Assembly: GCF_029960785.1 (NCBI RefSeq)
Contig: NZ_JASBQE010000029.1
Coordinates: 62,001 to 126,000 of the forward strand
Reading direction: 5' to 3'
DNA length: 64,000 nt
DNA from: Polyangium sp. 15x6
GTDB lineage: Bacteria > Myxococcota_A > Polyangia > Polyangiales > Polyangiaceae
Every line of letters starts with the position of its first letter. The stretch's first letter is position 1. The translations under genes and the position numbers were made by a program. This document shows positions 13,201-21,133 of the stretch, one piece after another. The notes beneath the pieces are model-generated. The model made no database searches, had not been told where the DNA came from, and was given only the letters and a program-made list of their open reading frames with translations.

Positions 13201-14061
13201 TCAGCCCTTCACGCCACCTGCCGTGAGGCCGGCGACGAGGTGACGCTGCGCCACGTAAAAGAGCGCCATCACCGGGAGCGAGACGACGAGCGCGCCCGCG
13301 GCGAACTTTTCCCATTGCGCGTCGTACTCGCCGATGAACCGCTGCAGCATCACGGGCAGCGTGAACATCTCTTCCTTGTCGAGCAGCGTCGCGGCGAGGA
13401 TGAACTCGTTGTAGGCGCCCATGAACGCGAAGAGCGCGGTCACGGCGATCGCGGGGCGCGCCGCCGGCAAGACCACGCGGACGAAGGCGGAGAAACGCGT
13501 GGCGCCGTCGACCATCGCGGCCTCTTCGAGGTCGACCGGGATCGCCTCGAATGCCGCGCGGAGCTGGAAGATCGAGAAGGGCACGCTCGTCGAGGCATAA
13601 CAGACGACGAGGCCCGTCCGCGAGTTCAAGAGGCCGAGGTAATTGAGGATCATGTAGAGCGGGATCGCGCTCGCCACGGCCGGGAACATCTGCGTGGCGA
13701 GCAGCGCCCGCACGCCCGACTCCTTGCCGGCGAAGCGGAACCGCGCGAGGGCATACGCCGTCGGAATGGCGATGAGCACGCCGACGAGCGCCGTCGCGAG
13801 CGAGACGACGAGCGAATTCGCGAGCTGGCGGCCGAAGAGCCAGATGTCGACGCCGTCGACCTTGCGCGTGGCGCCCACGACGGCCGAGAGGTGCGCGAGC
13901 GTCGGCGCCTCCGGAACGGGAATCACGCGGGGCGAAGGCGTTTGCGTGCCCGAAAATGCGAGCGCGACGACCCAGAGGACGGGATACAGCGCGAACGACA
14001 CCGCAAGCACGAGGACGACGTGAGACGCAGCCGATTCGAAGAACGAAGGCTTCTTGTTCAC
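13201..14061 (-). CDS. ABC sugar permease, MalG-type
   Basis: The 286-aa inner-membrane permease starts with GTG at 14061, with GGGAGGT upstream. The start overlaps the TGA of the preceding fusion gene by four bases (GTGA), which implies translational coupling. It has six membrane spans and the EAA loop EEAAMVDGATR...VVLPAARP that contacts the ATPase, as in CUT1-type (maltose, maltodextrin, sn-glycerol-3-phosphate) transporters. Together with the permease half of the fused protein and the ATPase it would form the importer. The substrate is inferred from the neighbouring alpha-amylase. Confidence 0.92.
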   Translation of the reverse strand: MNKKPSFFESAASHVVLVLAVSFALYPVLWVVALAFSGTQTPSPRVIPVPEAPTLAHLSAVVGATRKVDGVDIWLFGRQLANSLVVSLATALVGVLIAIPTAYALARFRFAGKESGVRALLATQMFPAVASAIPLYMILNYLGLLNSRTGLVVCYASTSVPFSIFQLRAAFEAIPVDLEEAAMVDGATRFSAFVRVVLPAARPAIAVTALFAFMGAYNEFILAATLLDKEEMFTLPVMLQRFIGEYDAQWEKFAAGALVVSLPVMALFYVAQRHLVAGLTAGGVKG

Positions 14062-16319
14062 GCCGCACCTCCCGCCGCCTTCGCCATCGCCGCCGCCGAG
14101 GCCTCCTTTTCGCGCGCCTCGCGTCGCTCCGCGCGCCAATCCGAGATCCGGGTCCGGCCGAAGAGCAGGAGGAAGATCAGCACGGCATACGCCGCGGCGT
14201 ACCCGTATTGCGCATTGCGGGTGAAGGCCCAGCGATAGGCCTCGGTGACGAGGATCTCGGTCGTCCCGTCGGGCTCGCCGCCCGAGACGAGGAAGACGAC
14301 GTTGAACATGTTGAACGTCCAGACCGCGCCCATCGTCACGGCGGGCAAGAGGCTCGGCCGGATCATCGGGAGCGTGACGAGCCAGAGCCTTTGCCAGCGG
14401 CTCGCGCCGTCGACCTTCGCCGCTTCGAGCACGTCGTCCGGCACCGCCGTGAGCGCGCCGATCGTCACGACCATCATGAAGGGAAAGCCGAGCCAGACGT
14501 TCGTCGCCACGTTCGCCGCGAATGCGGTGGAGAAGCGAGCGAACCACGAAATGGGCTCGAGGCTCGTGCCGAAGGTCTCGTTGAGGGCCTGGATGAGGCC
14601 CGTGACGGCCCCGAATTGGCGGTGGAACATGCCCTTCCACGCGAGCGCGGTCACGTAGCTCGGCACGGCCCAGGGGATGATCAAGAGCACGCGATAGAGC
14701 GCGCGGAGCCGCAGCATCGGCCGGGAGAGCAGGAGCGCGAGCGCGACGCCGATCGCGACGTGGAAAAACACGTTGAGCACGGTCCAGAGGACGGTGACGA
14801 GCAGGACCACGTAAAACGATCCCGTCGAGAGGAGCGGGCCGCCGCGCGCCGTGAGGATCTGGACGAAATTGTGGAGGCCGACGTAATTGTTCCAGCCGAC
14901 CTCTTTCAGATTCTGGATCGAGCCGCCGAGCAGCGACGTGAGCGCGCCGAGCACGAGCGGCAAGACCACGAGGACGCCGACCGCGATCACGGCATGCGCG
15001 ACGTACGCATACGCCGGCAGCGAGCGCTTCACGTCTCTCCGGAACTCGGGCTCCTTCGCGCGCCGGACGAGCGAAACGGCGCCGAGCAAGAGCAGCGCGC
15101 CGAACACGACGAGCCCGGGCGTGCGCGAGGCGGGCGGCGGCGCCGGGCGGCGCACGTCGTCGAATCGACGCTTGGCCTCGGAGAGCGCGAGGGCGGGGAG
15201 CGCGTCGCGGCGGAGGACCTTGCGAATGGCCCGGTCGGAAGGCTCCCACACGGCGTTCATCGCGAGCGACGAGGGCATCGCAATCGAGGACCGGGCTTGC
15301 TCGGCGAATGCGGCGAGGAAAGCGTCCTCCGGCGGCAAGGGGACGTCGATGCGGGCGGGCAAGGTGCGCGCTCGTTCGAGGCGGATCTTCGTGGCCTCGG
15401 GGCTCGCGAGCAGCCGCGCGAGCGCGCGGACCTCCGGGCGCGTCGCGCCTTTGGGCGTGAGCATGACGGCCTCGACGCCGAGATAAGGCTGGAGGGGTTT
15501 TCCGGCCGCGCGAACATGCGGCAGCGGCGCCACGCGGTAATGGAGCAAGGGCGCGTCTGCCAGGCTCGTCGCGAGCCACGGGCCGTCGATCGCGAACGCC
15601 GCCTTGCCGGAGCGGAACAGGTTCGTGACGACCGAGACGTCGGTATCCTCGGCGACCACCTTTTTCGCGCGCAGGTCGAGGACGAAATCGAGCGATTTCT
15701 CCGCGGCGGGCCCAACGAATCCGAACTGATCGTCGGGCGTCAGCATGAGCCCGCCGAACGCGTGGACGAACCCGGCGTGGTAATACGTCGACTGCGAATA
15801 GTAGGCGAGGGGAACGACCCCGGCCGGGAGATGCTCGGCCAGCGCGGCGATCGATTCGAGGTCGGCTGGGATTTCCTTGACGAGGTCCGTGTTCACGTAA
15901 AGAGCGATGCTCTTCTGCGTGATCGGAACGCCATACGGCTCGCCGTGGAGCGAGACGGCGGCGAGCGTGGGGCCGGCGAACGCATTTCGGTCGAGCGCGT
16001 CGCCCACGGGCGCGACGACCTTGCGGCCGTCGTAATCACCGAGCTTGTCGTGCGCGTCGAGGAAGAGGTCCGGCCCCTCGCCGAACTGGACGGCGGCGGA
16101 GACCTTGGACTTGAAGGCGTCCGAGGGGAGCGCGAGCAATTCGACGCGCTCGCCCTGGAAGCGCGCGACGATCTCTTCGAGCGCTTTTTGCTCGTCGCCG
16201 CGCTGCGCGTGCCAGAGCCGGATGGGCTCGGCCCGGGCCGCGGGCGCGAAAAAGACGACCACGAAGAGCAGTGCGAAGGCCCAACACCCGCGGAACGGTC
16301 GCCGCTCGGTCGATTTCAC
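14058..16319 (-). CDS. Fused sugar-binding protein and MalF-type permease
   Basis: One uninterrupted 753-aa frame joins two proteins that are normally separate. After a signal peptide (WAFALLFVVVFFAPAARAE), residues about 30-395 are a cluster-1 solute-binding protein (IRLWHAQRGDEQ, GPDLFLDAHD, YVNTDLVKEIP, AAFAIDGPW). A membrane span near residues 415-435 (LVVFGALLLLGAVSLV) joins it to a MalF-type permease of about 320 residues with the EAA loop LEAAKVDGASRWQRL...LPMIRP. The start is GTG at 16319, four bases after the ATPase stop. The binding domain would be tethered on the periplasmic side instead of free or lipid-anchored. No frameshift or internal stop suggests an artefact. Confidence 0.9.
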   Translation of the reverse strand: MKSTERRPFRGCWAFALLFVVVFFAPAARAEPIRLWHAQRGDEQKALEEIVARFQGERVELLALPSDAFKSKVSAAVQFGEGPDLFLDAHDKLGDYDGRKVVAPVGDALDRNAFAGPTLAAVSLHGEPYGVPITQKSIALYVNTDLVKEIPADLESIAALAEHLPAGVVPLAYYSQSTYYHAGFVHAFGGLMLTPDDQFGFVGPAAEKSLDFVLDLRAKKVVAEDTDVSVVTNLFRSGKAAFAIDGPWLATSLADAPLLHYRVAPLPHVRAAGKPLQPYLGVEAVMLTPKGATRPEVRALARLLASPEATKIRLERARTLPARIDVPLPPEDAFLAAFAEQARSSIAMPSSLAMNAVWEPSDRAIRKVLRRDALPALALSEAKRRFDDVRRPAPPPASRTPGLVVFGALLLLGAVSLVRRAKEPEFRRDVKRSLPAYAYVAHAVIAVGVLVVLPLVLGALTSLLGGSIQNLKEVGWNNYVGLHNFVQILTARGGPLLSTGSFYVVLLVTVLWTVLNVFFHVAIGVALALLLSRPMLRLRALYRVLLIIPWAVPSYVTALAWKGMFHRQFGAVTGLIQALNETFGTSLEPISWFARFSTAFAANVATNVWLGFPFMMVVTIGALTAVPDDVLEAAKVDGASRWQRLWLVTLPMIRPSLLPAVTMGAVWTFNMFNVVFLVSGGEPDGTTEILVTEAYRWAFTRNAQYGYAAAYAVLIFLLLFGRTRISDWRAERREAREKEASAAAMAKAAGGAA

Positions 16320-16323
16320 GCTT

Positions 16324-17406
<1,083 letters not shown>

Positions 17407-17423: not shown

Positions 17424-19355
17424 CTAGCGCTGGGACTCGGGGACGAGGACGGCGCCGCTCGAAGGCGGCAGCTTGATCGAGAGGCGGCCATCGTTCGTGA
17501 CGGGATAGGTTTGTCCGCCCTCATTGAGCACGTCGACGAGCACCGTGCCGGGCGCGGCGCCGACCTGCATGGGCTGGCCGCCGAACTCGGGCGAGCCTTC
17601 CTTCTCGATGTTCGCGTTGATCACGACGATCGAATAGGAGTCGCCCGCGTCGCCGCCCGTGCGCTCGAATGCGAAGACGTTCGCGTCGGGATCACTCGGG
17701 CCCGTGCGATCGCTGGCCCAGAGGATCTGGAGATCGCCCTTGCTGAGGGCGGGGTACTTGCGCCGGATCTCCGAGAGGCGGCGAATCCACTGGAACGTGG
17801 GCGCCGCCATGTCGTAGCCGGACGTCCAGAGGTCCTCGCGATTGCCGGGATCGTTGCCGCCCTGGAAATCCTGCTCGGTGCCGTAATACACGCAGGGAAT
17901 GCCCTCCTCGGTGAAGAGGAAGAGCAGCGCGTTGTGCAGCATCTTCCGGCGCGTCTCCAGCGAGAGCGGCGTGCCGAAGATCGGATCCTCGGGGTACATG
18001 CCCGCGCCCGTGAAGAGGAAGCGCGGCACGTCGTGGTTGTCGAGGAAGTTGACGAGCAGCTTCTGCGGCGAGACGCCCTGGCCCGACGCGTTCACCGCGC
18101 CGCCCTGCGCCGGCGTCACGCCGTAATTGACGGCGCGGTCGGCCCAGAGCTTCTGGATGTTCGAGGTGGGCCCGCGATAACGGAAGACGTCGCGGATGAC
18201 CTGGAATTGCTGCGGGAAGTAAAACACGCTGTCGAGCATGTCCGCCGTCAGCGGGACGCCGTCGGTCACGCACTGGTTGTCCGTGGCGAGCTCGTCGGCC
18301 GGCGGCGGGGCGTCGTTTCCATTCTTCGTGAACGAACCGACGAGCTGATCGCGGCCGTCGAACGCCTCGCCGAACATGAAGAAGTTCGTCTTGCCCTTCG
18401 CGGCCAGGCGCTGCCGCACCTTCTGCGTGAAATGCCGCCAGAAGCCGTTCTCGACGTGCTTGACCGTGTCGATGCGGAAGCCGTCGATGTCGGTGAGCTC
18501 GATCCAGCGCGTGTAGGCGTCGACCATCGCGTCGCGGATCGGGCAGAGCTCCGTGTTGACGTCCTTCAATCCGCCCGGGAAGTCGCCGCGCACGAGCTGA
18601 TCGGGGTCGTCGAAATTGTACGTGCGGCCCTTGCGGTTGTAGGCGAGCGGGTTTTGCAGGATCTCCGGGAACGGCGGCATGTGGTTCGACGCCGGGTCGT
18701 GCGCGAAGATGATCGGCGCGAGGCCCGATTCCCCGAGGGAGGTCTCCGCCTGCACGCCGCGGACGTCGTACGTCGGGTCGTACTCGTTCTCCTTGAAGAC
18801 ATTGGGCGTGCCGGGCACGGATTGGTTGAGCGGGTCGTCCGCCTGCCCATTGCCGTTGATGTCGTAGAAGAAGAGCTGCCCCATGTGGTTCGTGACGATG
18901 TCCAGGATGACCTTGATGTTGCGGCCATGCGCCGCCTTCACGAGGCTCTGGAGCGCCGCGAGGTCACCGAACTGCGGGGCCGGCTGGGTGAGGTCCTGCG
19001 CCCAGTAGCCGTGGTACGCGTCGAATCCAGCGTCCGTGTAGACGTTCTTCACGACGGGGGAGATCCACAGCGTGGTGACGCCGAGCTCGTCGAGGTAATC
19101 GAGCCGCTGCTCGAGCCCCTTCCAGTCGCCGCCGTGCCATTTGCCGGGCGCCGAAGGATAGACGGAGAAGTTATTTCCCCAGTCGCCGTCGGCGAAGCGG
19201 TCGATGAGGACCTGGTAGATGATCTCCTCGCGCCAGTCGACGACGTTCGTCTTGAGCTCGACCTCCGGCGGGTCCTCGAACTCCATGCAGCCAGTCGATC
19301 CGAATCCGGAGACGACGAGGCCGAGGATTGCGGCCGATGAACGCGCTCGATTCAT
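17424..19355 (-). CDS. Alpha-amylase (GH13) lipoprotein
   Basis: The 643-aa enzyme hydrolyses alpha-1,4-glucans. The start is the ATG at 19355, preceded by AAGGAG; further Met codons upstream lack a site. A lipobox (GSTGC, Cys about residue 23) predicts membrane anchoring. The GH13 regions are present: IVTNHMGQ, GFRIDTVKH with the nucleophile Asp at about 296, FMFGEAFD with the acid/base Glu at about 330, and FLDNHD with Asp at about 442. DINGNGQADD may bind calcium. The C-terminal beta domain has the usual Phe-rich strands. It sits between the porin and the transporter genes and would feed maltodextrins to them. Confidence 0.94.
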   Translation of the reverse strand: MNRARSSAAILGLVVSGFGSTGCMEFEDPPEVELKTNVVDWREEIIYQVLIDRFADGDWGNNFSVYPSAPGKWHGGDWKGLEQRLDYLDELGVTTLWISPVVKNVYTDAGFDAYHGYWAQDLTQPAPQFGDLAALQSLVKAAHGRNIKVILDIVTNHMGQLFFYDINGNGQADDPLNQSVPGTPNVFKENEYDPTYDVRGVQAETSLGESGLAPIIFAHDPASNHMPPFPEILQNPLAYNRKGRTYNFDDPDQLVRGDFPGGLKDVNTELCPIRDAMVDAYTRWIELTDIDGFRIDTVKHVENGFWRHFTQKVRQRLAAKGKTNFFMFGEAFDGRDQLVGSFTKNGNDAPPPADELATDNQCVTDGVPLTADMLDSVFYFPQQFQVIRDVFRYRGPTSNIQKLWADRAVNYGVTPAQGGAVNASGQGVSPQKLLVNFLDNHDVPRFLFTGAGMYPEDPIFGTPLSLETRRKMLHNALLFLFTEEGIPCVYYGTEQDFQGGNDPGNREDLWTSGYDMAAPTFQWIRRLSEIRRKYPALSKGDLQILWASDRTGPSDPDANVFAFERTGGDAGDSYSIVVINANIEKEGSPEFGGQPMQVGAAPGTVLVDVLNEGGQTYPVTNDGRLSIKLPPSSGAVLVPESQR

Positions 19356-19380
19356 GAGGCTCCTTCGATTCGCTTTCATG

Positions 19381-21066
19381 TCATCCACCGTAGGTCGTCT
19401 GCGCGTTGAACCACCACTCGACCCCGACGCCGAAGAAATGCTCCCATTCCCGCAGGCTGAACACGTCGTCCTTCGGGTACATCGAGCGCGCCCCCTCGTC
19501 GCGGTGCGTGAGGAGGTAAATGAGGCGGAGCTGCGGGCGGCTGTAGCTGCCCTTGCCCGCGGGATTCAGGAAAGGCACGAAGCCGATGCGGAAGAGGCCG
19601 CCCATGACTGGATCGTTCGTGGGCGCCGGAATGGGCTGGCCCGGCGGCGTGGGCGGTTGGTACCGGACGCCGCGCTGCTGCGCCTGGTAGGAGATCTCCG
19701 TCGCGATGCCGCCCCACTCCGTGAGGAAGAAATGGGGACGGGCCATGATGATGCCCTCGTCGACGTCATTGTAATCGAGGCCCTCGCTCGCATCCCGGAA
19801 GCTCCGGAAATAGCCGGCCGCCATGAGCCCGAGCGGGCCCGTCTCCCAGTTGCCGCTCAGGGTGATCCAGAGCTCGCGCGCGCCCGCCGAGGTGCGGTCC
19901 GGCGCGAGCTGGAACGGCGTGCCGAACTCGCCGTACGCCGCGGCGCCGCCCGCATACCGGATGAACAGGTTCACGTGCGAGGCGTCGCGCCCCGTGAACG
20001 CGCCGAATTGCGCGCCGACCACGTACCCGAAATCCGCCGGCAGGGTCTCGAACGCGCCCTTCACCTCGGTCTCGCGCTGGCCCGAGGGGATGTCGTGGAG
20101 CTCGCCGTAAAGGACCGCCTTCACGCCGGCCGTCTCTCCGACCTTGACGACATGGCTCGCCTTCAGGCTCGTGATGAACTTCTGCCGGTCGAGGATGTTG
20201 ACGTTCGCCGCGCCGACCTGGTTCAAGGCCGGCGTGCGCGCGACGGTTTGGCTGAAGAAACCCGTGCGCGGCTGGTTCAGGCCGGCGTGCCAGGCGATGA
20301 AGGTGCGGCCATTGGCGAAATCGTAGCGCAGGCCGCCGCCCATCGTGTTCAGGTTGTCGAGGGGCCAGTAATCGATGAGGTAGGCGTCGTCGCCGCGGTA
20401 CATGCGCGAGCCGACCCAGGCCGAGAGGCCCTTCGTGACGATGTTGTTCGCCTGGAGGAACAGGTTCCGGACCGCCATGCGGATGGTGAAGTCCGCATTG
20501 TAATGAAAGAGCGGCGCCGAGGTGCCGAGCGTGATGACGGCCCGCGTCGTCGTGCCCGTGGCTTTCCAGTAATCCTGGCGCTGGACGTCGAGCTCGAAAT
20601 AAGGCGATTCGTCGAGGCGCGAGCCACGCGCGACGAGGTCGGCGTCGCGACCGGGGCGCTTTCGGAAATCGGTGGCCGCACCGACGCGGCCGTACGAGCC
20701 CAGGAAAAACCCGCTCTCCGGCGGCGGAGGTTCGGCCGCTTTCGGCGCCTCGGCGGCTTTGGGCGCCTCCGCCTTGGGCTCGGCCGGCTTCACGTCGCCC
20801 GCGCCTTCGCGCTTTTGCGCCGCTGCGCCGTCGTTCGTGGCGGGCGGATCCGCCTGCTTGCCCGCTTCGGGCGCTGGCGGCGGCGCCGGCGGCGCGTCGG
20901 CCGGCGGCGGCGCGCCTTCGGACGTAGCAGGCTTCGGGTCTACGGTGGGCTCGGTTTGCGCTGCCGCGAGAGACGGGGAGGCACAGAGCGCCGCGGCGAG
21001 GAGGGCCGAGGGGACGCCGTGAAGACGGCTCCTTCGCGGCCCGAATTCGGGTCCGGATCGTCGCAC
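19381..21066 (-). CDS. Outer-membrane carbohydrate porin (LamB-like)
   Basis: I place the start at the GTG at 21066, which puts the hydrophobic signal (SALLAAALCASPSLAAAQ) near the N-terminus; the frame could also start with GTG at 21123. A long Pro/Ala/Glu-rich, probably periplasm-spanning segment precedes a beta-barrel of about 400 residues with GSYGRVGAATD, many aromatic strand ends and a LamB-like region (YLIDYWPLDNLNTMGG). The chain ends in an aromatic-rich strand. By analogy with maltoporin it would let maltodextrins across the outer membrane. The assignment rests on general LamB resemblance plus the adjacent amylase and importer genes. It is the first gene of the sugar locus and follows the GT39-like gene closely. 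Confidence 0.75.
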   Translation of the reverse strand: MRRSGPEFGPRRSRLHGVPSALLAAALCASPSLAAAQTEPTVDPKPATSEGAPPPADAPPAPPPAPEAGKQADPPATNDGAAAQKREGAGDVKPAEPKAEAPKAAEAPKAAEPPPPESGFFLGSYGRVGAATDFRKRPGRDADLVARGSRLDESPYFELDVQRQDYWKATGTTTRAVITLGTSAPLFHYNADFTIRMAVRNLFLQANNIVTKGLSAWVGSRMYRGDDAYLIDYWPLDNLNTMGGGLRYDFANGRTFIAWHAGLNQPRTGFFSQTVARTPALNQVGAANVNILDRQKFITSLKASHVVKVGETAGVKAVLYGELHDIPSGQRETEVKGAFETLPADFGYVVGAQFGAFTGRDASHVNLFIRYAGGAAAYGEFGTPFQLAPDRTSAGARELWITLSGNWETGPLGLMAAGYFRSFRDASEGLDYNDVDEGIIMARPHFFLTEWGGIATEISYQAQQRGVRYQPPTPPGQPIPAPTNDPVMGGLFRIGFVPFLNPAGKGSYSRPQLRLIYLLTHRDEGARSMYPKDDVFSLREWEHFFGVGVEWWFNAQTTYGG

Positions 21067-21133
21067 GCCGGCACGGTACACCAAGGTGCGGCCCCGCGTG
21101 AAGATTGCATCGTCGCGACGCACGACCCCATCG

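Follow-up and report, generated by a model that had tools for sequence, protein, structure and literature searches.

A MalE-type binding domain fused to a MalF-type permease in Polyangium sp. 15x6 and other Myxococcota

In Gram-negative bacteria, the receptor of a sugar importer is usually viewed as a free protein present in large excess. This holds for the MalEFGK2 system of E. coli, in which MalE is free and in excess and MalF carries a large P2 domain. Tethered receptors are found in importers of other families. In the mollicute PotCD (MMSYN1_0195, a permease/substrate-binding protein), which belongs to the polyamine family and not to CUT1, one receptor is fused to one of the two permeases of a heteromeric importer. 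In OpuA and GlnPQ of Lactococcus, which serve other substrate families, the receptor is tethered to the membrane domain by a short linker, 11 residues long in OpuA (PMC11065425), and OpuA has an anchoring helix too. The design is also already known from a MalE–MalF precedent, the maltose/maltodextrin importer that Licht et al. characterised in 2019 (Res Microbiol 170:1–12), in which, according to the title as cited in PMC7756565 and PMC9045158, a single MalE domain is fused to MalF; the passage in PMC7756565 reports the fused protein to be transport-competent. The doubt expressed in the sequence-only reading of the present locus about a CUT1 example is therefore outdated. PDB entry 6FFL contains the Bdellovibrio bacteriovorus MalE domain with maltotriose and was deposited as 'Maltose/maltodextrin transport permease homologue'. 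The characterised importer is presumably that of B. bacteriovorus, judging from the title of the report and this entry.

The window, that is, the whole stretch of 64,000 nucleotides analysed here, comes from a host genome of 13.4 Mb whose nearest named relatives are Polyangium. It carries a fused MalE–MalF gene at positions 14058–16319 of the minus strand (753 codons plus the stop), translated into 753 residues from a GTG start, with an SD-like GAGGTGA just 5′ of it, within the end of malK. The sequence-only reading had placed this single frame exactly, leaving the strand unstated, and its division into a binding protein, a transmembrane linker and a MalF-type permease agrees with Pfam, which finds both domains. 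The signal peptide (residues 1–30, 16230–16319, minus strand) is hydrophobic over residues 12–30 and has a model helix at 9–22. It is followed by the MalE-type (SBP_bac_1) substrate-binding domain (residues ~32–390, 15150–16226, minus), delimited by Pfam, structure comparison and pLDDT, with a PF01547 match at residues 42–310 (8.8e-25). A short periplasmic linker with about 33% proline (residues ~391–399, 15123–15149, minus) leads to a single anchoring transmembrane helix (residues ~400–421, 15057–15122, minus), assigned an N-out/C-in orientation from hydropathy, charge and the model. The MalF-type permease core (residues ~437–740, 14100–15011, minus) is defined by Pfam, with a BPD_transp_1 match at residues 524–720 (3e-18), and by the match of the permease part to E. 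coli MalF (2r6g_F, E=2.4e-42). The structure prediction that the sequence-only reading had proposed as a check gave the same succession: the AlphaFold2 model (65 aligned sequences, mean pLDDT 84.3) presents a binding domain with pLDDT mostly above 90, one isolated helix at residues ~400–421 and the permease.

The fused gene is included in an operon transcribed entirely from the minus strand, in the order LamB, GH13 amylase, MalK, fused MalE–MalF and MalG. The LamB-type maltoporin (19381–21123; Pfam LamB 1.1e-24) has an uncertain start codon, and the GH13 alpha-amylase family enzyme (17424–19388; Pfam Alpha-amylase 5e-46) has a lipoprotein-like signal, as read off the sequence. Directly upstream of the fused gene lies a MalK/UgpC-type ATPase (16324–17406), which exceeds the PRK11650 cut-off and carries PF00005, PF17912 and PF08402, i.e., an ATPase with an OB/TOBE regulatory domain. 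Directly downstream, a separate MalG-type permease of 278 residues (13201–14037) has BPD_transp_1 only, so that the partner permease bears no second binding domain. The locus thus combines a cluster 1 SBP_bac_1 domain, heteromeric MalF- and MalG-type permeases and a MalK-type ATPase, which are the features of CUT1; the MalF and MalG models score best for the two permeases, yet below their equivalog cut-offs. The receptor, permeases and ATPase are homologous to those of E. coli MalEFGK2, with LamB and an amylase in the same pathway, but a search of the Polyangium genome for the P2 domain of MalF (PF14785) gave no match. In Polyangiaceae and Nannocystaceae the gene order matches that of the window, LamB and GH13 amylase included, and in more distant relatives these two neighbours are frequently undetected.

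We consider it very probable that the operon encodes a complete CUT1 importer of the maltodextrin type, in which a single gene combines malE and malF and each importer has one tethered receptor. The LamB porin and the exported GH13 amylase would supply malto-oligosaccharides to the periplasm, where the binding domain, attached through about 9–11 linker residues and one membrane helix, would capture them and dock on the MalF–MalG pair, unable to leave, and ATP hydrolysis by MalK2 would drive uptake. With one MalF, one MalG and two MalK, there would be exactly one receptor per importer, because only MalF carries it, in contrast to the two receptors of each OpuA complex; nor is the homodimeric permease with two or more receptors of the OpuA/GlnPQ type encoded here. 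The idea in the sequence-only reading that fusion fixes the stoichiometry and keeps the receptor at the importer would follow from this anatomy.

Long spurious frames are abundant in high-GC genomes, and the sequence-only reading had itself raised a missed stop codon or frameshift, here between malE and malF, as the error to look for. Such an artefact is ruled out by conservation and keeps a negligible probability. Relatives were searched in 59 genomes first and then in 379 sampled Myxococcota genomes; the full-length fused orthologues range from 96% to about 40% identity, and a match spanning both domains was found in ~140 of the 379, a hand count of printed match rows. All 80 of the best-matching named genomes, isolates and complete genomes included, encode the two domains in a single open frame; these loci are the best matches to the fused query and are no measure of how common unfused forms are. 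They include Myxococcus xanthus, M. vastator, Sorangium cellulosum So0157-2 (complete), Nannocystis exedens, Plesiocystis pacifica and Enhygromyxa salina. The junction between MalE and MalF can be aligned without breaks across relatives. Because of these 80 named genomes and the ~140 sampled genomes spanning both domains, the conservation is far beyond chance; the in-frame fusion is real and widespread in Myxococcota. In a plasmid search for the fusion, a single record, from Cetobacterium, reached a query coverage of 80% or more, and its match consists of two separate genes.

The same alignments bear on whether the protein works as a single chain. One chain could be made and its linker then cut in the periplasm, releasing MalE as a free protein and leaving MalF with one additional helix, and the linker is indeed short and presumably exposed. 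Nevertheless, across aligned relatives it is better conserved than the binding domain (mean identity of 59% vs 45%), and relatives have separate malE and malF genes, which makes cutting a roundabout way to obtain the same proteins; we regard cleavage as very improbable and a lasting tether as the expected state. Of 65 aligned rows, 64 have a hydrophobic anchor helix, and in all 65 a net positive charge follows it on the C-terminal side, a pattern consistent with a receptor in the periplasm and a turn in the cytoplasm preceding the permease. An internal translation restart at the junction was also considered and rejected, since fewer loci have an in-frame start with an SD-like sequence there (13 of 143) than in a control stretch (37/143).

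Regarding the substrate, malto-oligosaccharides are likely, since LamB and GH13 genes adjoin, and the exact sugar is uncertain. The nearest solved folds to the binding domain are maltodextrin-binding proteins with maltotriose or maltotetraose (VIA Z ~42), in an alignment whose rows are mostly MBP chimeras, so that the absence of other families from it is uninformative. The equivalents of MalE W230 and W340, which provide aromatic stacking, are mostly kept in the fused proteins. On the other hand, an invariant Lys (Lys136) stands in place of the maltose-contact residue E111, and W62 is not retained, which suggests that the preferred sugar may differ from maltose. These changes, together with the frequent lack of detected LamB and GH13 neighbours in more distant relatives, could indicate import of a sugar other than malto-oligosaccharides, but this is unlikely given the maltoporin and amylase in the operon, here and in Polyangiaceae and Nannocystaceae, and the oligosaccharides held by the closest solved folds. 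The same Lys occurs in the unfused relative L084 and may therefore predate the fusion.

Several Myxococcota families present the gene order MalK–MalE–MalF–MalG with malE and malF separate. Their unfused MalF has a first transmembrane helix, about 100–150 periplasmic residues, two or three more helices and then the permease core. No Pfam family matches the N-terminal periplasmic segment in these unfused Myxococcota proteins, which is possibly a sensor-like domain; the N-terminal parts of the unfused MalF at loci L079–L093 show recurrent motifs such as 'GTDEFGI' and 'DKLLYDAA'. Fused and unfused forms share the final helix ahead of the permease core, which indicates that the receptor occupies the place of the first helices and the periplasmic segment of unfused MalF. 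In the permease tree, for which two outside rows served as root, one branch with a support of 98 contains the fused sequences and lies within a grade of unfused relatives, and in the binding-domain tree the main fused clade has a support of 99; both are 'quick' builds in which several forks lack resolution. From these comparisons, the Myxococcota fusion would have arisen from malE and malF genes lying side by side, and the receptor probably took the place of the N-terminal periplasmic segment of MalF.

A variant of the fusion, represented by family f46 (L089, 5499–8099, minus strand, and L211–L217), has three helices between receptor and core and is conserved in the seven genomes examined (7/7). 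It lies inside the fused clade, as part of its single branch, in the permease tree and outside it, without a resolved place, in the first binding-domain tree; an alternative permease tree that puts it outside the fused clade is not rejected (p-AU 0.376). In view of this conflicting placement, the three-helix variant may represent a separate second junction event.

The relationship with the Bdellovibrio fusion was considered in the same way. Both are of the CUT1 maltose/maltodextrin type, with a single MalE domain placed before MalF in one polypeptide, and both groups are predatory bacteria, as could be expected from one ancestral fusion. However, 6FFL and the window binding-domain model, although similar in fold (Z 41.9), share only 21% identity, and against the fused domain of M. 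xanthus 6FFL scores 108 bits, below free maltose-binding proteins at 119–146 bits, such as those of Thermotoga (146), the 4hs7 protein (132), Thermus (130), Alicyclobacillus and others. As unfused forms, moreover, root the Myxococcota clade, a common origin seems rather unlikely, and the two fusions are possibly separate events, as far as a comparison of the binding domains alone can tell.

A second CUT1 receptor–permease fusion is present in the same Polyangium genome (L003/L210, 3079–9265), where the binding protein is joined to the first permease; a MalG-type permease, a GntR-family regulator and MalK come next. A full-length match to it was found in four of six genomes of the genus, and the remaining sampled genomes gave none at that threshold. 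Its permease and that of the window share only about 27% identity, so this fusion looks independent.

Tentatively, then, CUT1 fusion may have evolved more than once, as independent events in Bdellovibrio, in the main clade of Myxococcota, perhaps in the three-helix variant and in the unrelated CUT1 system of the same genus, with a maltose-type receptor replacing the N-terminal periplasmic segment of MalF in Myxococcota. If so, the repeated fusions would suggest that selection has favoured a single captive receptor per importer in all these cases, perhaps in connection with predatory life. What is new here is the breadth of the fusion in Myxococcota, its inferred route, the second unrelated CUT1 fusion in the genus and the signs of repeated fusion, among them slight evidence that the one in Bdellovibrio is separate. 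A lineage of the phylum, with the genetically tractable M. xanthus among its members, appears to hold the number of receptors at one per importer, so that the purpose of receptor excess and the need for receptor release could be tested in vivo, with the unfused relatives that have the same operon as natural controls.

Two further loci show other joined frames. At L084 (7327–9912, minus strand), MalK and the binding protein are encoded in one frame of 861 amino acids, separated by a Lys-rich linker and a hydrophobic segment, in the one genome from that order; this is a possible MalK–TM–MalE fusion, which would be another way to tether a receptor. In a Myxococcaceae MAG (L194, 1–4488), MalK, MalE and MalF form a single frame with no stop between MalK and MalE, which represents either a triple fusion or an assembly frameshift.
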